Positions 5,930-30,028 of a DNA stretch of 63,245 nt are shown in pieces (position 1 is the first letter of the stretch; the number at the start of each line of letters is the position of its first letter). A program made the position numbers and the translations under genes. Origin of the DNA: Gemmatimonadota bacterium (lineage in GTDB: Bacteria > Gemmatimonadota > Gemmatimonadetes > Longimicrobiales > Gaopeijiaceae). Below the pieces are notes generated by a model. That model did not search any database and was not told the origin of the DNA. It saw nothing but the letters and a program-made list of their open reading frames with translations. The stretch lies in contig SLBA01000070.1 in assembly GCA_007126575.1 (NCBI GenBank), positions 1 to 63,245 of the forward strand, given 5' to 3'.

Positions 5930-7267
5930 ATGACCGGCACCAATGGGCGCTCCAGTGCGTCCTCGACCTCTTCGCATACACCGTCTGACTCGTCCCCCGA
6001 CTCCGACCTGAGCTTCGCCTCGTTCGATCTCGACCAGCGCCTGCTCTCGGCGATCCGGGGGATGGGATTCGACTCCCCGACGCCCATTCAGGGTGCGGCC
6101 ATCCCACCGGCCATCGAGGGGAAGGACGTGCTCGCGACCGCGATGACCGGGAGCGGGAAGACGGCCGCCTTCCTCCTGCCGATCCTCCAGCGGCTTCTCT
6201 CGACGCCGGGGCAGGGGACGAGGGCGCTGATCGTGACGCCGACCCGCGAGCTGGCGGCGCAGATCGTCGAGCACTTCGACGACCTGTCGAAGGGCACGGG
6301 GCTCAAGGCGATCGCGATCTTCGGTGGTGTGGGGGCCAAGCCCCAGGAGAAGGCGCTGCGCAGGGGGGTCGACGTCGTCGTGGCAACGCCGGGACGGCTC
6401 CTGGACCACTTCCAGTACGATTACGCCCGCCTGCCCGGAATCGAGGTGGTCGTGCTCGACGAGGCCGACCGGATGCTCGACATGGGATTTCTGCCCGAGA
6501 TCCGGAAGATCCTGCGGCACCTGCCCAAGGGACCCCGGCAGACGCTCCTCTTCTCGGCGACCATGCCGGGGCCGATCGCGAAGCTCGCGAGCGAGATGCT
6601 CCGCAACCCCGTGCGGGTCGAGGCCCAGACGAAGCAGGCGCCCCCGTCGGCCATCACCCAGGCGCTCTACCCGGTACCGGCCGAGCTCAAGGTCGACCTG
6701 CTGGCCGAGCTCCTGCGCCGGAAGGAAGTCGGCAACGTGATCGTCTTCTGCCGCACGAAGCACCGGGCGAAGCGCCTGTCGAAGAAGCTTGGCCAGCGGG
6801 GGATCGCGGCGGCCGAAATCCACGGGAACCGGAGCCAGAAGCAGCGCACCGACGCCCTGGCCGGATTCCGCGACGGGCGATACGACGTGCTCGCGGCCAC
6901 CGACATCCTGGCGCGGGGGATCGACGTGGTCGAACTCGACCACGTGGTCAACTTCGATGTCCCGGGGGCTCCCGAGGACTACATCCACCGGATCGGGCGG
7001 ACCGCTCGCGCCGGTGCCAGCGGCGAGGCCTACACCTTCGTGGCACCCGAGGAGGAGAGCGGGGTCCGCGACATCGAGCGCGCGCTCGGACGGTCGCTTC
7101 CCCGGCGGACCCTCGCCGACTTCGACTATTCGGCGAAGGCGGACGAGCGCTTCGAGGTTCCGGTCTCGGAGCGGCTGGCCAAGCACCGCGCCCGCCGCAA
7201 GGACGAGCGCGAACGGGCCAAGAAGAACGAGGAGCGCCGGAGCCGGAACTCGGGCGGGCGTCGCTGA
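5930..7267 (+). CDS. DEAD-box ATP-dependent RNA helicase (RhlE/CsdA-like)
   Basis: A 445-residue helicase with both RecA domains. Visible motifs in order: Q-motif region GFDSPTPIQ, Walker A TGSGKT (Lys77), PTRELAAQ, TPGRLLDH, DEAD (177-180), SAT, then in domain 2 VIVFCRTKHRAKRL, TDILARGIDV and HRIGRTARAG. A basic tail (KHRARRKDERERAKK and onwards) likely contacts RNA. Such enzymes unwind short RNA duplexes in ribosome assembly or mRNA decay. ATG 5930 is chosen over an upstream in-frame ATG because homology starts there, after a Ser/Asp-rich linker. The gene ends at a strong hairpin shared with the convergent gene. Confidence 0.93.
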   Translation: MTGTNGRSSASSTSSHTPSDSSPDSDLSFASFDLDQRLLSAIRGMGFDSPTPIQGAAIPPAIEGKDVLATAMTGSGKTAAFLLPILQRLLSTPGQGTRALIVTPTRELAAQIVEHFDDLSKGTGLKAIAIFGGVGAKPQEKALRRGVDVVVATPGRLLDHFQYDYARLPGIEVVVLDEADRMLDMGFLPEIRKILRHLPKGPRQTLLFSATMPGPIAKLASEMLRNPVRVEAQTKQAPPSAITQALYPVPAELKVDLLAELLRRKEVGNVIVFCRTKHRAKRLSKKLGQRGIAAAEIHGNRSQKQRTDALAGFRDGRYDVLAATDILARGIDVVELDHVVNFDVPGAPEDYIHRIGRTARAGASGEAYTFVAPEEESGVRDIERALGRSLPRRTLADFDYSAKADERFEVPVSERLAKHRARRKDERERAKKNEERRSRNSGGRR

Positions 7268-7282
7268 GACGGGATCGAACGC

Positions 7283-7331
7283 GACCACCGGTCACCGGCG
7301 GCCCTCGCGGGGCTGCCGGCGCCCGGTGGTC
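7283..7331. terminator. Long two-tier hairpin between convergent genes
   Basis: GACCACCGG (7283-7291) pairs with CCGGTGGTC (7323-7331), and inside it CCGGCGGCCC pairs with GGGCTGCCGG with one G-U. It fills most of the 78-base gap between the helicase stop and the stop of the convergent hydrolase gene, so it can act in both directions. No U tract follows, as is common in high-GC terminators. Confidence 0.75.
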
Positions 7332-7345
7332 GACCGATCGACGGA

Positions 7346-8464
7346 TCAGAGCAGCGACTCGAAGGGCACCATCTCGGGGCCGTTCTCGGTGCAGATGGCG
7401 TAGTTTCCTCCACCCCGCAGGGTGACGCCCGCGTGCTCCCCGGCCGCATTCAGGATGTAGAAGCGGATTCCGAAATTCGGCTCACCCTGCTCGTTGAGCA
7501 GGCGGGGCTCGATCGTGTTCTGCTGGATCCGGCGGATCGCATCCATCCCCGCGTCGAGCGGGGTCATCCCGCGCCGCAGGTTCTCGACGATCAGAAAGGA
7601 GGTGAGGTTGTAGAGGTTCGCCTCGCCCCGCCCGGTCGATCCCGCCGCGCCCACCTCGCCGTCGACGTAGAGCCCGGCCCCCAGGATCGGCGAATCGCCG
7701 ACACGCCCCGGGATCTTCCAGGCGAGTCCACTCGTCGTGGTGCACCCCGCGATCTCACCGGCCGCATTGACCGCGTTGCAGTTGATCGTGCCCCAGTAGT
7801 GTTCGGCGTCGATCAGGCCCTCTTCGACCATCTCCATCCCGCTCAGGAAGCCGATCCGCTGCGGGTCGTCCTCGCCCGGCCAGCGCGACGGGTCGGTGCG
7901 CCGGCGCCAGTCGAGCCACCGGGCACGAGAGACGTCGCTGTTCAGGTCGTCTTCGATCGTGAACCCCATGTTCCGGGCGAAGCGCTGGGCGTCGGGTCCG
8001 ACCAGGAGGTGGTGGTCGGTCTCGTGCATCACGGCGCGGGCCACCGCTGCCGGGGTCCGCACGCCCTCGAGGCAGGCCACGCTGCCGGCCCTCTTCATGG
8101 GGCCGTGCATGACCGACGCGTCGAGCTGCACCACGCCGTCTCCGTTCGGGAGGCCGCCGTAGCCCACACTGGTGTCCCCCGGGTCGAGCTCGTTGATGCG
8201 TACCCCGGCGATCACCGAATCCAGGATGTCGTCGCCCTGGGTCATGCGCTGAAAGACGGTCTCGACGCAGGTCAGGTCCCCATCGTGGCGGTACTGGTGG
8301 CCGTTGCCCGAAGAGACGACCGCGGGCCGACTGCGTCGGGGGATCACGCCCGGGGCCTCGGGAAGGGCGCCGGCGAGCGCTGCGGGGGCGGCGAGCCCCA
8401 GTCCGGCGGCCGCGGATCCGGTCTTGATGAAGTCGCGGCGGGAATAACCGGTGGGTTTCGACAT
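7346..8464 (-). CDS. Tat-exported N4-(beta-N-acetylglucosaminyl)-L-asparaginase (Ntn hydrolase)
   Basis: A 372-residue glycosylasparaginase-type enzyme. It would cleave the GlcNAc-Asn bond of glycopeptides or act as an isoaspartyl/L-asparaginase. The N-terminus has a twin-arginine signal, SRRDFIKTG, followed by an Ala-rich hydrophobic stretch, so the folded enzyme is exported. The autoproteolysis site is Gly225-Thr226 in WGTINCNAV; Thr226 becomes the new N-terminal nucleophile. The strongly conserved block PGRVGDSPILGAG follows, and GRGE lies further on. ATG 8464 is used because the Tat motif begins eight residues in. It lies 29 bases downstream of the aminotransferase gene on the same strand and probably shares its transcript. 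Confidence 0.9.
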   Translation of the reverse strand: MSKPTGYSRRDFIKTGSAAAGLGLAAPAALAGALPEAPGVIPRRSRPAVVSSGNGHQYRHDGDLTCVETVFQRMTQGDDILDSVIAGVRINELDPGDTSVGYGGLPNGDGVVQLDASVMHGPMKRAGSVACLEGVRTPAAVARAVMHETDHHLLVGPDAQRFARNMGFTIEDDLNSDVSRARWLDWRRRTDPSRWPGEDDPQRIGFLSGMEMVEEGLIDAEHYWGTINCNAVNAAGEIAGCTTTSGLAWKIPGRVGDSPILGAGLYVDGEVGAAGSTGRGEANLYNLTSFLIVENLRRGMTPLDAGMDAIRRIQQNTIEPRLLNEQGEPNFGIRFYILNAAGEHAGVTLRGGGNYAICTENGPEMVPFESLL

Positions 8465-21724: not shown

Positions 21725-21859
21725 ATGTTCCGATCTGTCCCAGGAAAAGCCATGCGAGGGCCCCGTGGTTCCCGCTCGGGCTGCGGTGCGCCGGCCGGGT
21801 CGGGTCTGCCCCTTCGAGCCCCCGACTCCCGGCTCCGACTGGGCTGTGCGAAGCGGTGA
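21725..21859 (+). CDS. Possible 44-residue leader ORF coupled to the GYF-like gene
   Basis: A short ATG-started frame with AGGAG eight bases upstream. It encodes a very basic peptide (many Arg; two Cys) with no recognised domain. Its stop overlaps the GTG start of the next gene (GTGA), while that GTG has no good ribosome-binding site of its own. Translation of the small frame would bring ribosomes to the GTG. The peptide may have no function beyond this. It could be a chance frame in GC-rich DNA. Confidence 0.4.
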   Translation: MFRSVPGKAMRGPRGSRSGCGAPAGSGLPLRAPDSRLRLGCAKR

Positions 21860-23631
21860 CGGGTACGGGGCGGTTCCGGTACCGAGACGAGTCCGGAGAG
21901 GAGCACGAGCTTGCATCGGTCGAGGTGCTCTCCCGGAGGGTCGAGGAGGGGGCCCTGTCTCCGGACACTTCGCTGTTCGACGCGGGGACCGGCCAGTGGG
22001 GGCGCGCCGGCGACCTCCCCGTCTTCCAGTTCATCGTCGACGAACTCCGACGCGAAGGGCGGCTCCCCGAGGGCTTCGATTCCATCGATCCGGGCCCTGC
22101 CGCGCCGAAGTCCGAATCGAAGCCGGAGTCGGAACCCGATGCGGAGTCGTCGGCGCCACCCCCGTCGGAGTCCCCGCCGGAGTCCGAGGGCACGGCGCCC
22201 GAGGCACCCGAAGCGCCCTCCGAAGAGGACCCCGTGTCCGCCCCCGACACGCTGGAGCTCGAAGACGAGGATACCCCGATCGGGTCGGATCTCGAGGAGC
22301 TCCCCCTGACTCCGGACCCCTTCGAGATGCACCTTCCGCGGACGATGCAGGATGCGGCCGACGAGAAGGACGAGCCCGACGACGAGGACGCAGCGTCGAG
22401 CGATGACGGGCTGGACAACAGCCCGCTGCACGAGTGGATGCTGTCGCAGTCGCCACGCCCCGAGCGGGGGCCGGGCGACAAGCCGCCTCCGCCGACGCCT
22501 CCGCCGACGCCTCCCCCGGCGGAGGATTCTCCCCGCAGGCGGCTCAAGGGGATCGAGCCCCTCGCCTCGCAGGCCACCGGATTCGAGCCGACGGGGCCGG
22601 CTCCGAGCCTGGAGCGCGAGACCGAGGATGCGAGCGACGGCTCGGAGTGGGACACCCGCAGCCTCGATGCCGGTGTGGCGCCGGCCGGGGAAATCCGCTC
22701 CCGTCCCCCCCCTCCTCGTCGCGATGGACGGAGCCGGTCCCGACACCGGCTGAAGGATCGGCGGAAGGGGATGATCGCCGGGGCGACGGCGTTGGGGGGT
22801 GTGATCCTCCTGATCGCGGTGTTCATGCTCACGCCGGGCTCCGACGATCTCGCGGACCCGGTGCGTTCGACGGGGCCTCAGGCTCCCTCGGGGGTCTCGG
22901 ATCCGCTGCCCGAGCTCCCGCCCTTTCCACTCCCCGACGGGTCCATCGGGTGGGCACCCACGGCGGACGAGGCCCCGGAGTCCGCCGAAGGCCGGGTCGC
23001 CGAACTCCTGCAGGAGGCGGTGACGAGCGAGTTCGAGTGGCTCCTGGACTCGGTGCGGGTCGCGGGCGCGCTCGATGTCGTTCCTCCGGCGGGATGGCTC
23101 GGGGGCCGGTATCTGTCCGGCGCCTCGGACTTCGACGACGTCCCGGCGTTCTGGGAGGGCTATACCGCCTATATCGGGCAGCTCATGGAGGAAGACGAGG
23201 CGCTCTATCTCGAGGCTGCCCGCCGCGGGTGGGAGGCGCTGGCTCAGGCCGGTGACCTCGAGGAGGCGGGGGTGGAGGCTCCCGGGGGGCCGAACGCCTT
23301 CACGGCAGCCATGGCCGAGCGCTATGCGATCCTTGCCGAGGCTCGCGCGTCGCGCTATGAACGCCGACTCAGGGTTGCGACGGCCGCCGAAGAGCTCCAC
23401 GAGTTCCTCGTTCGAAACGAGGGCTCGATCGAGTACGCCCCGGCACTCGGGGGCGGGGTGTCGGCCGATCCGGTCCTCGAAGCCGTGCCCATGAACCAGG
23501 AGACCCGTCGAGGGCTGGAGGCCCACCTGGACCGACTCTTCCAGGCCCTCGACGAGACGCGCCGCGGTGTTCCCCCCGCGCTGGGGGGGCTCCGGACCGA
23601 GCTCTTCAACCGGCTGCGCGAGCCCGTCTGA
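21856..23631 (+). CDS. Membrane protein with N-terminal GYF_2/DUF4339-like domain
   Basis: A 591-residue protein. Residues 1-65 resemble a GYF_2 (DUF4339) domain: FRYRDESGEEH, VLSRRVEEGALSPDT, TGQWGRAGDLPVF. An acidic, proline-rich low-complexity region (about 75-300) contains a PPPPTPPPTPPP tract. A basic stop-transfer (RHRLKDRRKGM) precedes one membrane helix (about 312-330, IAGATALGGVILLIAVFML). The C-terminal 250 residues are helical and face the other side; no family is recognised. GYF_2 domains usually bind proline-rich peptides, and the internal Pro tract may be a self ligand. The start is GTG. Its last 26 bases overlap the convergent gene. Confidence 0.7.
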   Translation: MTGTGRFRYRDESGEEHELASVEVLSRRVEEGALSPDTSLFDAGTGQWGRAGDLPVFQFIVDELRREGRLPEGFDSIDPGPAAPKSESKPESEPDAESSAPPPSESPPESEGTAPEAPEAPSEEDPVSAPDTLELEDEDTPIGSDLEELPLTPDPFEMHLPRTMQDAADEKDEPDDEDAASSDDGLDNSPLHEWMLSQSPRPERGPGDKPPPPTPPPTPPPAEDSPRRRLKGIEPLASQATGFEPTGPAPSLERETEDASDGSEWDTRSLDAGVAPAGEIRSRPPPPRRDGRSRSRHRLKDRRKGMIAGATALGGVILLIAVFMLTPGSDDLADPVRSTGPQAPSGVSDPLPELPPFPLPDGSIGWAPTADEAPESAEGRVAELLQEAVTSEFEWLLDSVRVAGALDVVPPAGWLGGRYLSGASDFDDVPAFWEGYTAYIGQLMEEDEALYLEAARRGWEALAQAGDLEEAGVEAPGGPNAFTAAMAERYAILAEARASRYERRLRVATAAEELHEFLVRNEGSIEYAPALGGGVSADPVLEAVPMNQETRRGLEAHLDRLFQALDETRRGVPPALGGLRTELFNRLREPV

Positions 23632-25525
23632 TCACGAGGCGGGTGACCGGGTGTCCGATCCGGGCGGGGCGGTCGCGGAGGACCACCCGGGCTCCCATGC
23701 GACGGGCGGTGTCCTCCCACTGATCGGATCGCCGATAGTGGATCGGGGCGGCGGGTCCCATCGAGCCGTCGCCCCGCTTCGCGTTCACCCAGCGGTCCAG
23801 CACCTCGAGGAGGCGGGAGCCGAGCGCGGTGCTCGGGGTCGACTCGAGGATCACGACCCGGTCCGCCGTCACCCTCAGCGCTTCGGCCAGCACCCGATCC
23901 GGTTCCGCGGTGTGATGAAGGACGAAGGAGAGGACCACCGAGTCGACGGCGCCGTCCCGGAAGGGGAGCCGTTCTCCCTCGGCCCGGACTCGGGTCTCGT
24001 CGCTGAAGGGCATCGCCATCGGGTCGACGACCCAGGCGCTCGCTCCTCGGTCGGGGGATCGTCGCTCGAGTGCCCGGGCGACCTCGCCTTCGCCCCCGCC
24101 CACGTCGAGCCATCGGTGCCCCGTCAGGTGGGGGCCGATCCATCCCGCCTTCCGGCGGGCCGCGATCCGGCGGAGGGGGCGGAAGGCCAGCTCGCGGTAC
24201 TGGTGCAGCGCGAAAAGGAGCCATCCCCCCCAGAAGAGGGCGACGAGGGGCCAGTGGGGCACCCCCGTATAGGTGAGATAGGTCGGGAGTGCGGCCGCCG
24301 AGGCCCAGAGCCAGGCCGGCCGGAGGGTGTCGGTGAAGGGCAGGAAGGCGAGCACCCAGACCAGGTACCAGGGGTGCACCGTCGTGGCCATCACGAGGTA
24401 GAGGCTGAAGACGAGGACGGCGGCCCGGGAGAGGTCGTCGACACCGCGGACCCGGTGAAGGGTCACGACGAAGAGGGCGCCCACCAGAAAGGCCAGCCCC
24501 ATCGCGGTGCCCAGCCCCGCGTACGTCGCACCCGGAAGCGCCTCGAGCGCACCCTTGAGCAGGTAGTAGAGCCCGGCGTTGAACTCGAACAGACCGGTGT
24601 ACAGCCGCGCCGACTGCGCGATCCCCAGCAGGTCGCCCGGACGGAGGAAGGGAAGGGAGAGAAGCCCCATCGCCAGAAGCACCCCGAGGGGGGCGCGGAG
24701 CCCCCGAAGGACCTCCCCGAACCCGCGACGGGGGGCGTCGGCCGGGGGACCCAGGGCTCGCCAGACCAGGGGGGCCAGGATCAGGGGGATGCCCTTCGAG
24801 AGGACCGCGAGGCCCCAGCCCGCCCAGCCGAGCCATGCAGCGGAGGGTCGCGGCGCGTGGGTCAGCCCGTAGAGGAGGAGGCCGATGCCGAGGACCAATC
24901 CGCCCTCGGTGTGCCCGCCCCCGGCGATGGTGACGAGGACGAGGGGGTTCCAGGCGTAGAGCGCGAGGGCGGCGGGGGGGCGGCGCAGGCGGCGAAGCGT
25001 AGCGTGCAGGAGGAGGACGCCGAGCGTCTCGAGCAGGAGGAAGCCGCCCTTGATCGCCCAGGCCGCGGCCGGCCATCCCCAGAACCGGTAGGCGAGCGCG
25101 CCGGGCAGGAAGATCCACTGCGAGAGGGGAGGGTAGATCGAGAAATATCCAGGGGAGTTCATTTCCCGGAAGAGGTCGGTCCCGTGCAGGTGCGAGAGTG
25201 CGGGGTCGGCGGGCACCAGGGTGTAGGGGCGCACGCCCTCGAGGGTGAGGAGTCCGTCCCAGAGGTAGCGATACAGGTCGTCGGAGAGGTCGGGCAGGGG
25301 GATCAGGAAGACGACCCTGAGCAGGAGGGCTCCCCCGACCAGGACCCGGGGGCGCGCAAGCCAGCGGCGGTGCGAGGTCCAGAGGTGCGCGAGAGCGCCG
25401 AAGGCCAGGGCCCAGGGGAGGAGCGCGGGCACGAGCGATGCCCGCTGCGGGCCGAGGATCGCCAGGGCGACCGCGGACCCGAAGAGGAGGAGTGCGGATG
25501 GGAGGGGAGAGCGATTCGGGTGCAC
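23606..25525 (-). CDS. GT87-like polyprenol-phosphate glycosyltransferase fused to a methyltransferase
   Basis: A 639-residue protein. About 440 N-terminal residues form some 11 membrane helices with a GT-C signature: an early acidic site in LPDLSDDLYRYLWDG, and STKG-like helices with GGGHTEGG and a later TVHPWYLVW. This matches the mannosyltransferase families that use polyprenol-phosphate sugars. The C-terminal 180 residues are a class I methyltransferase with motif I WLDVGGGEGEVARAL, a post-I VVDPMAMPF, and LPFRDGAVDSVVLSFVLHHTAEPD. No stop or frameshift separates them, so the fusion appears genuine. A coupled glycosylation and methylation of an envelope lipid is inference. Confidence 0.82.
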   Translation of the reverse strand: MHPNRSPLPSALLLFGSAVALAILGPQRASLVPALLPWALAFGALAHLWTSHRRWLARPRVLVGGALLLRVVFLIPLPDLSDDLYRYLWDGLLTLEGVRPYTLVPADPALSHLHGTDLFREMNSPGYFSIYPPLSQWIFLPGALAYRFWGWPAAAWAIKGGFLLLETLGVLLLHATLRRLRRPPAALALYAWNPLVLVTIAGGGHTEGGLVLGIGLLLYGLTHAPRPSAAWLGWAGWGLAVLSKGIPLILAPLVWRALGPPADAPRRGFGEVLRGLRAPLGVLLAMGLLSLPFLRPGDLLGIAQSARLYTGLFEFNAGLYYLLKGALEALPGATYAGLGTAMGLAFLVGALFVVTLHRVRGVDDLSRAAVLVFSLYLVMATTVHPWYLVWVLAFLPFTDTLRPAWLWASAAALPTYLTYTGVPHWPLVALFWGGWLLFALHQYRELAFRPLRRIAARRKAGWIGPHLTGHRWLDVGGGEGEVARALERRSPDRGASAWVVDPMAMPFSDETRVRAEGERLPFRDGAVDSVVLSFVLHHTAEPDRVLAEALRVTADRVVILESTPSTALGSRLLEVLDRWVNAKRGDGSMGPAAPIHYRRSDQWEDTARRMGARVVLRDRPARIGHPVTRLVIRRARAAG

Positions 25526-25795
25526 GGCGGACGATACCCCCCGGCGGGGGTCGCGGGCAAGTCGGGGTCACCCGGTGTCCGCAATCGAGGACGGTTTTGG
25601 GGGATTGGGAGGGGGGGCGGGGTTCGGCGGCGAAGGGGGAGTTCGCCGTGATTCGCTGTGGGAGAGGGCGTTTCGGGCGGCGTAGGGCTTGGGCCGGGTG
25701 GCCGAGGCATCTTCGGCACGCCCGTTGCCCTCCTACGGGTCGAAGGGCCGAGGCGAGCCCCGTACGGGGGAATTCATCCTGCGCAGGAGGCGGTC

Positions 25796-26479
25796 ATGAG
25801 ACGGTTGAACTGGATTCTGGTGGGCGCCCTGGCGCTCGCCCTGGGAAGCCCCGCACCGGCGCAGGGCCAGGTGAGCGCGGGCGTCGTGCTCGACCGCGAT
25901 GGGCTGCGGGTGCTGCAGGTGGCGATCGGCCAGGTCTACCGGGCGCCGGTGCGCGAGGTGCAGCGCTACGGGCCCTCGCGGATCCACCCGGACGAGCTGC
26001 CCGTGGTCTACTTCATCGCGAGGGAGGCGAGGGTGAGTCCCGAAGCGGTGGTCGCGCTGAGAGACCGCGGGTGGAGCTGGATGGACGTGAGTCGGCACCT
26101 GGGGCTCTCGCCGAACGTCTTCGTGCGGCACCTGCCCCGGCAGGGGCCTCCGTACGGAAACGCGCACGGCTACTGGGCCCGGCAGGACCGGAATCTGCAC
26201 CGGCTCAGTGATCGCCAGATCGTCGACTACGTGAATCTCGCTTTCTGGAGCGACTACCACCGCCAGCCCGTTCAGCGGGTGATCACGGTGCGGGAGCAGC
26301 GGGGGGGCTGGAGCAGCCTGACGCAGGGGGTGTTCCTGCAGGGAAGCTCGGCCGGGCCCCCGGGTCTGCAGCGGCAGGGAGCCGCGGGCCCCGGTCGCGG
26401 GCAGGCCGGACCGGGGCGTGGGCGGGGCGGTCCCCCCGCGCATGCGGGTCGGGGGGGACGGGGACCGGGCGGGTGGTGA
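25796..26479 (+). CDS. Exported protein of unknown function with Gly/Pro/Arg-rich tail
   Basis: A 227-residue protein with a clear signal peptide (MRRLNWILVGALALALGS, cleaved near PAQGQ). The middle contains REARVSPEAVVALRDRGWSWMDVSRHLGLSPNVFV, a helix-turn-helix-like pattern seen in small exported proteins of unknown role. The last 50 residues are rich in Gly, Arg, Pro and Gln and are probably disordered. GCAGGAGG lies seven bases upstream of ATG 25796, which decides the start over in-frame alternatives from 25658. I do not recognise a function. Confidence 0.65.
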   Translation: MRRLNWILVGALALALGSPAPAQGQVSAGVVLDRDGLRVLQVAIGQVYRAPVREVQRYGPSRIHPDELPVVYFIAREARVSPEAVVALRDRGWSWMDVSRHLGLSPNVFVRHLPRQGPPYGNAHGYWARQDRNLHRLSDRQIVDYVNLAFWSDYHRQPVQRVITVREQRGGWSSLTQGVFLQGSSAGPPGLQRQGAAGPGRGQAGPGRGRGGPPAHAGRGGRGPGGW

Positions 26480-26488
26480 CGCCTCCGG

Positions 26489-28594
26489 TCAGAGGGGGCT
26501 GATCCCCATCAGGTCGATCCGGACCGGCTGTCCCGTGAACTCCTGGCGAACCATGAGGTGCGGGGCGTCCCGCATCAGGTAGAGGGTGAGCGGCGCGGGC
26601 CCCCCGCTCACCTCGACGCGCCACACATCGAAACTCCGGCCCTCGCCCAGGTCGAGCGTCTCACTCCCGGTGACGCGCGCCTGTAGCTGGACCGGCTCGC
26701 CACTGGTGGCATCGAGGTAGGGGATGTCGATGCGGGCGCCCTCGGAGAGCTCCGAGATGGCCAGGGCGTACTCGTCCATCCCCGGCAGGAGCATTCCCGG
26801 GCTCAGGGGCTGGTCGAATTCCGTCGTTCCGCCGAGCTGCTCAGGGAGTTCGACCTGTCCGACCAGCTGGCCGTCCTCGACCCGCAGGTCGACGTCGATC
26901 TGAATCGCGCCCTGCGACTGGGTCTGTCGCAGCGAGCGCGGGGTGAAGTCGGTGGCGTCGAAGCGCAGCTCGGTCTCCTGGGTGCTCCCGGCCGCCGTGA
27001 CCGACACGGTCGAGACCCAGTCGTCGGCCTGGCGCTCGAGTCGATATTCGGCGGCGCCCATCGGATTGCCCTGTACGAAGTACTCGTAGCGGCGCACTCC
27101 CTCTTCGAGGATCGCCGGGTTCCAGGACACGGGCTCCCGCTCTCCGACGACGTCCTCGCGGGCGATCGGCGCTCCCTCGATGTCGAAGAGCTCGACCGGT
27201 GCCACGGCCTCGAGGGGCTCGAGAATTCGGGCCCCGTCGCCGACCACGATGATCGCGGCCCGGTCGGGGTGGAGGTGGGCCTGCGCGACCCGCTGCACAT
27301 CCGCGGCGGTCACACTCCGGATCCTCGTGGGATACTCGGTCACGTCGGTGACCGGCAGGCCGAGCAGGAAGGTGGTGGCGAGCTGGCCTGCCACCTGGTC
27401 GGCGGTCTCGAGGCGCAGGGGGAAGCTGCCCGCCAGGAAGTTTCGGGCCGCGTCGAGCTCCTCCTCGGGCACCGGCTCGGTGCGGAGTCGCTCCATCTGG
27501 CGCAGGATTTCGACGGTGGTCGAATCGGTCACCTCGGTGCGCACCTCGGCCGTAGCCGAAAAGGAGCCCAGGTCGGCGGGGCGGCTGAACGACGAGTAGG
27601 CCCCGTAGGTCCAGCCCCGCTCCTCGCGCAGGATCTGGAAGAGTCGGGCGTCGGCGCCCCCGCCGAGCACCCGGTTCATCACCACGAGGGGGAAGTAGTC
27701 GGGGTGGTCGGGCTCGACGCCGGGGTGCCCGACGCGCACGACCGACTGCACCGAACCGGGGCGATTCACCAGGTAGATGCGGGTCTCGCCGCGCGTGGGG
27801 ACGTCCGGAAAGTCGACTTCGGGGGGTGTGCCCGGTGCCCAGTCTCCGAAGTGCTCGCGCACCCGGGTCTCGATCTCGGCGCGCTCGACCTGTCCGGCAA
27901 CGACGAGCAGCGCTCCGCTCGGCTGCAGGAGCCGGTCACGAAGCGCGACCATGTCGTCGCGCGTGATCGACTCGACGGTCGACGGCGTCGAGCTCACACC
28001 GTAGGGGTGATCTCCGTAGACCACCGTCGAGAACCTGCGGTTCGCGATCGCCTGCGGCTGGCCGAGCTGCGCCTGCAGGCTCGAGAGCGTCTGGCGTCGG
28101 GCGAGCTCCACCTCGTCTTCGGGGAAGGTGGCTCGCAGCACGACGTCTTCTAGGAGCTCGAAGGCGGTGTCCATGTGCTCGGTGAGCGCCGAGACGCTGA
28201 CCGAGAAGAAATCCTGGCCTCCCGATGCACCCACCGACCCCCCGACGCCCTCGATGAACTCCGAGATCTCATCGGCGGTCCGGCTCTCGGTCCCCTTCGT
28301 CAGGACCGTGGCGGTGAGTCCCGCCAACCCTGCCTGCGAGGGGTCGAGCAGTGCCGCCCCGCCCGGGGCGTACAGCCGGGCGCTCATCACCGGCTGCGTC
28401 CCGTAGGAGAGCACGATCACCCGAAGCCCGTTTTCGAGGGTGAACTCCTCGAAGGGCGGGAACTCGATCGGGCGCTCCGTCATGGGGGGCGGGGGGTCGG
28501 CCTGTGCCACCAGCTCCGCGGGCCCGAGCGCGACCAGGGTGAACAGGGCGAACGAATACAGGAGTGCGGTGAGACTGCTCTGGAGCCGGCTCAT
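26489..28594 (-). CDS. M16-family protein, inactive-type subunit with extra C-terminal domain
   Basis: A 701-residue exported protein (signal peptide before AQADPPPP). Two M16 half-domains are present (about 45-250 and 250-470), with RREERGWTYGAYSSFSRPADLG typical of the second. The zinc motif HXXEH is absent: the usual position reads AGLAGLTATVLTKGT. In paired M16B peptidases this is the non-catalytic partner that supplies the substrate-binding R/Y residues. An extra C-terminal domain of about 200 residues follows, rich in beta strands and resembling DUF3108-like domains. The ATG overlaps the catalytic partner's stop (ATGA). Confidence 0.88.
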   Translation of the reverse strand: MSRLQSSLTALLYSFALFTLVALGPAELVAQADPPPPMTERPIEFPPFEEFTLENGLRVIVLSYGTQPVMSARLYAPGGAALLDPSQAGLAGLTATVLTKGTESRTADEISEFIEGVGGSVGASGGQDFFSVSVSALTEHMDTAFELLEDVVLRATFPEDEVELARRQTLSSLQAQLGQPQAIANRRFSTVVYGDHPYGVSSTPSTVESITRDDMVALRDRLLQPSGALLVVAGQVERAEIETRVREHFGDWAPGTPPEVDFPDVPTRGETRIYLVNRPGSVQSVVRVGHPGVEPDHPDYFPLVVMNRVLGGGADARLFQILREERGWTYGAYSSFSRPADLGSFSATAEVRTEVTDSTTVEILRQMERLRTEPVPEEELDAARNFLAGSFPLRLETADQVAGQLATTFLLGLPVTDVTEYPTRIRSVTAADVQRVAQAHLHPDRAAIIVVGDGARILEPLEAVAPVELFDIEGAPIAREDVVGEREPVSWNPAILEEGVRRYEYFVQGNPMGAAEYRLERQADDWVSTVSVTAAGSTQETELRFDATDFTPRSLRQTQSQGAIQIDVDLRVEDGQLVGQVELPEQLGGTTEFDQPLSPGMLLPGMDEYALAISELSEGARIDIPYLDATSGEPVQLQARVTGSETLDLGEGRSFDVWRVEVSGGPAPLTLYLMRDAPHLMVRQEFTGQPVRIDLMGISPL

Positions 28595-29961
28595 CGGTCG
28601 TCCTCCTGGCTGGCGGGGCGGGTGAAGATCACGGCGCGGTTGTCCGGTCTGAGGTAGTCGCGGGCGACCCGCTGCACGTCGTCGGCCGTGACCGCTTCGA
28701 TCTGCGCCACGGCGGTCGCGATCGCGTCGGGGGTCCCGTAGAAGCGATTGGCCGACTGGAGCGCTTCGGCTCGGCCCATGACGGACTGGCGGCTGAAAAT
28801 CGTGCCGGCGCGCACCTGGTTGCGTGCCCGTTCGAGCTCCTCCTCGGTGACGCCGTCTTCGATCAGTCGATCGATCTCTTCGTCGATCAGCTCCAGGAGA
28901 CGCTCGGCCTGGACCCCCTGGTTCGAGATGCCGATGAACTGGAAGATGCCGGGCCCGAGCCGGGGCGAGGCTCCGGCGCTCGCCTGCAGGGCCACCTGTT
29001 CGTCGCGGACGAGCCGGCGGTTCAGCCGGGCGCTCTGCCCGGCGCCCAGGACCTGCCCCAGCACGCTGAGCGCGGCCGCGTCGGGGTGACTGCGCTCGAC
29101 GATCCCGTACGAGATCCAGACCGCGGGCAGCTGGGCGTTCGGATCGGTCACCTCGAGCTCGACGGGCAGGTGCGAGAAGGGCTCCTCGCAGACGGCCTCC
29201 TGGGGATCCGGCCCGCGGGGAATCTCGCCGAAGTACTCGTCGATCAGGGCACGGGCCTCGGCTTCGTCGAAGGCTCCGACGACGGTGAGGGTGGCGTTGT
29301 TCGGGGCGTAGTAGCGGTCGAAGAACTCCTGGACATCGGGGAGCTCCGCCGCGTCGAGGTCTTCGGGGGATCCGATCACCGAGTGGGCGTAGGGGAAGCA
29401 CGAGGTGGAGTCGTAGGCCGCGTAGAAGGCCGCCTGGAGCTGCGATGTCCCGTAGGGGGAGTTGTCGATCCGCAGGCGGCGCTCCTCCTTCACGACCTCG
29501 ACTTCGCGCGCCATGTTCTCGGCCGTGATCCGCAGCGACCGCATCCGGTCGGCCTCGAGCCAGAGCGCCAGGTTCATCCGCTCGGGCGGGACGGTCTGGA
29601 AGTAGTTGGTGCGATCTTCGGTGATCGACGCGTTCAGGGAGCCCCCCGCCCGCTCGACGAGCTGGAAGTGGGCCCCTTCGGGCACATTCTCGGAGCCCTG
29701 GAACATGAGGTGCTCGAAGAGGTGTGCGAAGCCGGACCGGCCGGGCCTCTCGTTGCGGCTTCCCACGGCATACCAGAGATTGACGGCCACGGCGGTCGAT
29801 CCGTCGTCGGGAGCCAGGATCACGTGGAGCCCGTTGTCGAGGTGATAGGCCTCGAATGGGAAGTCGCCGGTGGTCTGTGCGGTCTGTGCCGGAAGCGGGG
29901 ACACCCCGAAGGCTCCGGCCAGAGCGAGGGTGCAGAGGACGGTTGAAAGTCTTGGGCGCAT
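28591..29961 (-). CDS. M16-family zinc metallopeptidase, catalytic subunit
   Basis: A 456-residue exported zinc peptidase of the insulinase/processing-peptidase family. A signal peptide ends near PLPAQT. The inverted zinc motif HXXEH is HLFEH at residues 80-84, and the distal glutamate lies in the helix EVEVVKEERRLRIDN. It probably degrades peptides or small unfolded proteins in the periplasm as a heterodimer with the next gene product, which lacks the motif. The two genes overlap by four bases. A divergent promoter region of 130 bases separates it from the SRAP gene. Confidence 0.93.
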   Translation of the reverse strand: MRPRLSTVLCTLALAGAFGVSPLPAQTAQTTGDFPFEAYHLDNGLHVILAPDDGSTAVAVNLWYAVGSRNERPGRSGFAHLFEHLMFQGSENVPEGAHFQLVERAGGSLNASITEDRTNYFQTVPPERMNLALWLEADRMRSLRITAENMAREVEVVKEERRLRIDNSPYGTSQLQAAFYAAYDSTSCFPYAHSVIGSPEDLDAAELPDVQEFFDRYYAPNNATLTVVGAFDEAEARALIDEYFGEIPRGPDPQEAVCEEPFSHLPVELEVTDPNAQLPAVWISYGIVERSHPDAAALSVLGQVLGAGQSARLNRRLVRDEQVALQASAGASPRLGPGIFQFIGISNQGVQAERLLELIDEEIDRLIEDGVTEEELERARNQVRAGTIFSRQSVMGRAEALQSANRFYGTPDAIATAVAQIEAVTADDVQRVARDYLRPDNRAVIFTRPASQEDDR

Positions 29962-30028
29962 GGTCGGCAGGGGTTCTGCATCGGCCGGTGGGCGGCGAAT
30001 GCGGTGGTGGGAACGTCATCGCTCGATT

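Follow-up and report, generated by a model that had tools for sequence, protein, structure and literature searches.

The stretch of DNA analyzed here (the window) comprises 63,245 nucleotides of contig SLBA01000070.1 from the Gemmatimonadota bacterium assembly GCA_007126575.1 (Longimicrobiales, Gaopeijiaceae). A single gene on its reverse strand (positions 23606-25525, GTG start, 639 amino acids) joins a GT-C glycosyltransferase to a class I S-adenosylmethionine (SAM)-dependent methyltransferase, and we found that this fusion is conserved across several bacterial phyla. We give a probability of roughly 0.5 to the reading that the product is a bifunctional inner-membrane protein, in which a glycolipid or lipid-linked sugar is methylated on the cytosolic side and this step is coupled to the transfer of a sugar on the outer face.

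Conservation of the fusion across bacterial phyla

The reading frame is open over all 639 codons from the GTG, in agreement with the single uninterrupted frame described in an earlier note on this sequence, and its guanine-cytosine content by codon position (0.75/0.53/0.89) is of the coding type. When 98 related genomes were searched, the fusion was detected in 12 genomes besides the window, stop-free and at 88 to 43% identity, one of the 12 being truncated at a contig end. A profile built from 12 fusions was then run on 121 sampled genomes from the Gemmatimonadota family to which the window belongs, and both domains were found full-length and in one frame in 16 of them, representing 10 genera. 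The fusion is also present in 18 of the 296 genomes of a phylum sample around a Rhodothermales metagenome-assembled genome (MAG) and in 3 of the 294 genomes of a sample around a Phycisphaerales MAG, and four carriers have it on contigs of 4.0, 4.5, 4.8 and 9.5 Mb. Six-frame analysis of the fetched fused loci placed both domains in one shared stop-free frame. The nearest named carriers are Gemmatimonadota metagenome assemblies, many of which are CSSed sediment bins, together with the two MAGs of Phycisphaerales and Rhodothermales just mentioned and an impure proteobacterial bin. Purifying selection acts on both halves: in comparison with the closest relative, the ratio of nonsynonymous to synonymous divergence (dN/dS) is about 0.2 for the GT-C half (0.059/0.302) and about 0.25 for the methyltransferase half (0.113/0.445), the latter diverging faster (82% identity to the nearest relative, against 89% for the GT-C half).

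Considering that the window comes from a draft genome of 205 contigs, we examined if an assembly or sequencing artefact might have joined two genes. Because the fusion recurs at full length in many genomes independent of this one, among them 16 of the family and those of other phyla with contigs of 4.0-9.5 Mb, and because the linker is conserved among them, assembly error was rejected, its probability being negligible. The case that the earlier note had raised against its own proposal, namely two separate genes in relatives and a fusion created by error, is therefore not the one observed; the fusion is real, conserved, and retains both sets of catalytic motifs.

Several loci deserve separate mention. 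In one genome (G682:C102:7652-9555, L258) the fusion lies in two overlapping frames, which may reflect a frameshift, a pseudogene or a sequencing error; this genome was rejected as an example of separate domains, as the break falls inside the GT-C half. At another locus (L014 / L071; G003:C336, about 7040-7709) the GT-C frame ends near residue 350 and continues into a polyketide-synthase-like stretch (GYPFERQRHW), probably at a chimeric contig end. A 12 Mb bin named 'uncultured proteobacterium' (G432; L106 / L109) contains the fusion as well as a close unfused GT-C and is probably a mixture of organisms.

The GT-C half

By its predicted fold, the N-terminal half (residues 1-442; 24200-25525; all features of the fusion lie on the reverse strand) is a GT-C glycosyltransferase. 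The AlphaFold 2 (AF2) model of this half, made with 75 relatives (m0e3fcab76e27; pLDDT 96, pTM 0.94), gave VIA structural matches to ALG3 (PDB 9s6r; Z 23.8), GPI mannosyltransferase I (PIG-M/Gpi14, PDB 9wno; Z 22.7), ALG6 (Z 19.7), ArnT (Z 16.7) and PimE (Z 15.7), as well as a Foldseek match to 9wno at 6e-5. The sequence profile of the same half, taken alone, matches GPI mannosyltransferase I (1.5e-11) and PimE (5.8e-5). The earlier note had counted 11 membrane helices; the protein is indeed polytopic, but the AF2 model and the charge distribution suggest about 14. Its label 'GT87-like' is appropriate at the superfamily level, where sequence comparison relates this half to GT87 and MptB: at E 0.1 or better, 36 of the 75 relatives match PF09594 (GT87; best 2.4e-15) and 24 match NF038066 (MptB), and the MptA model TIGR03459 is matched by 13. 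The window protein itself, however, matches no such model, since its N-terminal half gave no hit to the glycosyltransferase models of Pfam and NCBIfam even at E 10, and filing it under GT87 (PF09594) or MptB (NF038066) was rejected for this reason.

Residues invariant in all 75 relatives include D83, R86, Y87, D90, Y131, H205, W386 and Y387. The first four lie in the first extracytoplasmic loop motif, DLSDDLYRYLWDG (residues 79-91; 25253-25291), whose S-D/E-D pattern with the invariant D83 and D90 corresponds to the acidic DxD-like motif of the GT-C superfamily; its outer location is suggested by the charges, and D83 and D90 are the putative catalytic or donor acidic residues. The end of this loop is marked by YPPLSQ (residues 131-136; 25118-25135), in which P132, P133 and Q136 follow the invariant Y131 in at least 90%. 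Two further motifs are predicted to lie on the outer face, namely H-T-E (residues 205-207; 24905-24913), beginning with H205 and ending with E207, which is invariant in the 12 fusions, and HPWY (residues 384-387; 24365-24376), which contains W386 and Y387. By kinship, this half would belong with the GT-C enzymes that use polyprenyl-phosphate hexoses.

The methyltransferase half

A positively charged helical linker, predicted to be cytosolic (residues 443-466; 24128-24199; AF2 helix 444-466; 0.28 lysine plus arginine per residue), leads to the C-terminal domain (residues 467-636; 23618-24127), which is a class I SAM-dependent methyltransferase as judged by its sequence. Residues 441-614 match the Pfam models PF13489 (3.2e-11; 43.7 bits vs a gathering score of 27) and PF08241 (3.7e-11; 44 bits vs 21.2), both above the curated cut-offs, and motif I, LDVGGGEG (residues 473-480; 24086-24109), is kept with L473, D474, G476, E479 and G480 invariant, so that the description of a class I methyltransferase with intact motif I is confirmed. 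The conserved features of the METHYLTRANSFERASE half are this motif, an acidic residue that follows strand 2 (D501, conserved in at least 90%), an LHH motif (residues 536-538; 23912-23920) and E561, the acidic residue after the next strand (23843-23845), the last two being invariant in the 12 fusions. The best structural match is the sugar O-methyltransferase RebM (3bus; Z 18.0), and another enzyme of this kind, AtmM (6uv6), scores Z 16.6; about 170 residues are aligned at 2.7 Å, and the LHH motifs of both enzymes align with that of the window domain. They are soluble natural-product enzymes with about 21% identity to the window domain.

Predicted membrane topology and proposed mechanism

Topology was assigned with the N-terminus inside and with helix 133-149 not counted as spanning, which gives 0.231 lysine plus arginine per residue in the inside loops vs 0.059 in the outside ones. 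Under this assignment, all conserved GT-C motifs are outside, and the charged linker and the methyltransferase are inside. SAM is a cytosolic cofactor. Because of the distribution of positive charges and the need for cytosolic SAM, the methyltransferase is predicted to be cytosolic and the site of sugar transfer to be on the outer face; we infer this arrangement from the charge rule and the AF2 model together. GT-C enzymes act on the extracytoplasmic side with lipid-linked donors (PMC11127046, PMC8035078). With the two active sites predicted on opposite faces of the membrane, methylation, of a glycolipid or a lipid-linked sugar, most likely precedes export. The proposal of the earlier note that sugar transfer is followed, within one complex, by methylation of its product is not supported, as the GT-C motifs are placed outside and the methyltransferase in the cytosol.

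In the mechanism that we propose, a polyprenyl-phosphate carrier would supply the GT-C half with a hexose, perhaps mannose or glucose to judge by the kinship of this half, which would be transferred to an envelope acceptor at the outer surface of the cytoplasmic membrane, in the manner of GPI mannosyltransferase I, ALG3, PimE and MptB. On the cytosolic face, the methyltransferase half would use SAM, probably for O-methylation of a glycolipid or lipid-linked sugar in the inner leaflet; the methylated lipid would then be exported by a flippase, and the GT-C half could use the flipped lipid as its donor or acceptor. More tentatively, these proteins of several phyla might constitute a new enzyme family active on both faces of the membrane, with modification, export and transfer of a lipid-linked sugar physically coupled on one chain.

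Genomic context of stand-alone relatives

We selected the nearest stand-alone methyltransferase homologues (82-95 bits) regardless of their gene context, and all 10 of them have a GT2 of the AglJ or dolichyl-phosphate-hexose-transferase type nearby, whereas no AglJ-like GT2 was found near any of 16 control methyltransferases from the family. In several of the homologue loci the genes are tightly arranged in the order GT2-methyltransferase or GT2-methyltransferase-GT-C (PMT_2). Stand-alone GT-C relatives likewise adjoin an AglJ-like GT2 in 14 of 18 loci. These two independent lines of context point to polyprenyl-phosphate-sugar metabolism.

In Gemmatimonadota, an AglJ-like GT2 and a methyltransferase of about 200 amino acids are grouped at several loci (L183-L191 and L076), in a number of cases together with a PMT_2-like GT-C, and this gene group is a candidate unfused glycan-methylation module. 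The window's genome also encodes the AglJ-like GT2 of that module (G000:C161:6022-7167, L197; 56% identical), which has no stand-alone methyltransferase next to it.

Weighing of alternative explanations

Several observations weigh against the coupling of cytosolic methylation to outer-face transfer as proposed above. None of the 18 fused loci has an AglJ-like GT2 beside the fusion, and therefore the donor pathway has to be deduced from relatives; nor does the window have an AglJ-like GT2, in contrast to multi-component transmembrane glycosylation systems, in which a GT2 lipid-sugar synthase is encoded with the GT-C. The topology hinges on helix 133-149 being taken as non-spanning. Several close GT-C relatives (L109, L112, L113 and L259) have no methyltransferase, and sugar transfer can therefore proceed without it. 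Finally, the match to RebM and AtmM is tied with those to other small-molecule methyltransferases, and it does not fix the substrate.

This last point leaves room for a methyltransferase acting on some unrelated small molecule of the cytosol or the membrane, such as a quinone, a phospholipid head group or a carotenoid, with the fusion serving only as a membrane anchor. Models and structures of the UbiE/UbiG type and of phospholipid N-methyltransferases score about as well as those of sugar methyltransferases, and six loci (L111, L112, L113, L241, L255 and L259) have genes resembling phytoene desaturase and lycopene cyclase no more than a few kb from the GT-C gene, whether this is fused or not. 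These six loci are, however, all of the Rhodothermales/Salinivenus type, and thus of one lineage, and most also have miaA, a housekeeping gene, nearby; the carotenoid genes are absent from Gemmatimonadota and the other fusion loci tested, so that this neighborhood supports a carotenoid enzyme at most as a rival. As the closest stand-alone homologues are found near polyprenyl-phosphate-hexose synthases in 10 of 10 cases, against 0 of 16 controls, we regard a small-molecule substrate as unlikely, although it has to be kept in mind.

In the reverse order of steps, the one proposed in the earlier note, glycosylation would come before methylation; the GT-C product would be brought back to the cytosolic face, or formed there, before it is methylated. 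This sequence of events would follow the simple order of the domains along the chain, and a product that is flipped back is compatible with all measurements in this analysis. It conflicts with the cytosolic location of SAM and with the placement of the conserved motifs and the positive loops on opposite faces, as well as with the extracytoplasmic action of GT-C enzymes (PMC11127046, PMC8035078), and appears improbable. Similarly low is the probability that the methyltransferase domain is a non-catalytic sensor of SAM or a metabolite that regulates sugar transfer: some relatives seem to have lost this domain and kept the GT-C half, which may mark it as accessory, and it is the half that diverges faster, but the fusions have kept motif I, the acidic residue that follows strand 2, the LHH motif and E561, and dN/dS for this half is about 0.25.

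Origin of the fusion

The combination of GT-C and methyltransferase is ancient. All fusions are confined to one part of a wide family in the GT-C tree. The methyltransferase domains of the fusions group as a single clade relative to stand-alone homologues, with a weak branch support of 0.65, and the two domain trees agree on the Gemmatimonadota group. Close GT-C relatives without a methyltransferase (Salinivenus L112/L113, L109, L259 and L119) are placed among the fusions by the trees, and therefore loss of the methyltransferase appears to be the simpler reading for them. A single fusion event with later losses is the best, though not proven, reading of these trees. The earlier note had suggested looking for separate neighboring genes in relatives. 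The methyltransferase family does occur separately beside GT2 and GT-C elsewhere in the phylum, but that GT-C is of a different family. We also considered if the fusion might have arisen by joining of the stand-alone GT-C of sister genera with a neighboring methyltransferase; this was rejected because of different synteny and a different GT-C clade, the neighbors at the sister-genera loci being GT2, glutamate/oxoglutarate dehydrogenase and nuclease-like genes.

Comparison with known systems

GPI mannosyltransferase I and ALG3 are eukaryotic Dol-P-Man-dependent GT-C enzymes that share the same GT-C core (residues 50-445), and their acceptors are not expected here. They differ from the window protein in having no methyltransferase domain and in lacking its two extra N-terminal helices (8-24 and 28-51), which precede the aligned core. 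Among the bacterial polyprenyl-phosphate-mannose-dependent mannosyltransferases GT87, MptB, MptA and PimE, the first three have models that are matched by many members of the wider family but not by the window protein, and the actinobacterial enzymes are not known to carry a methyltransferase. Multi-component transmembrane glycosylation systems (GT2, flippase and GT-C) share the acidic outer-loop motif and, presumably, a lipid-linked donor (PMC8035078, PMC11127046); unlike them, the fusion has a methyltransferase on the same chain and no AglJ-like GT2 at its locus. Methyltransferase and glycan-assembly modules are combined on one chain in ORF6 of the Klebsiella O7 cluster, a soluble, multi-domain methyltransferase-glycosyltransferase, and in WbdD (PMC11231755, PMC3482155), but these are described without a GT-C half, and their methylation (with a kinase) terminates a growing polysaccharide chain. 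In the literature searched, chiefly open-access papers, no GT-C enzyme fused to a methyltransferase is described. The parts are of known kinds, and their combination and its spread appear to be undescribed.

The fusion links an orphan methyltransferase family, which elsewhere in the phylum lies beside AglJ-like polyprenyl-phosphate-hexose synthases, to GT-C glycosylation. It points to an uncharacterized envelope glycan or glycolipid of Gemmatimonadota and relatives of Rhodothermales that contains an O-methylated sugar, and it provides one gene with which to test if the use of a lipid-linked sugar outside the cell is coupled to its modification inside.

Genes neighboring the fusion

In 12 Gemmatimonadota loci (the window and 11 others), a pair of M16 peptidase genes lies upstream of the fusion in the same direction, and in six loci (L062, L064, L066, L067, L071 and L074) it almost abuts the fusion. 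In the window (25658-30000), Pfam identified an M16-peptidase-related gene (M16_C and DUF3108; 26489-28000, reverse strand; start not fixed) and, as the other member of the conserved pair, a second M16 peptidase gene (28591-29961, reverse strand). The adjacent pair was not seen at the fusion loci of other phyla, where the neighbors are housekeeping genes such as miaA, an xerD-type recombinase gene, guaB and pepQ. An M16 operon partner was dropped as an explanation of function, the adjacent pair having been seen only at Gemmatimonadota loci, and no functional reading was drawn from it. On the other side, the 3' end of the fusion overlaps by 26 bases with a convergent gene without a known Pfam family (21856-23631, forward strand), the family of which recurs next to several fusions (L002, L060, L072 and L075).

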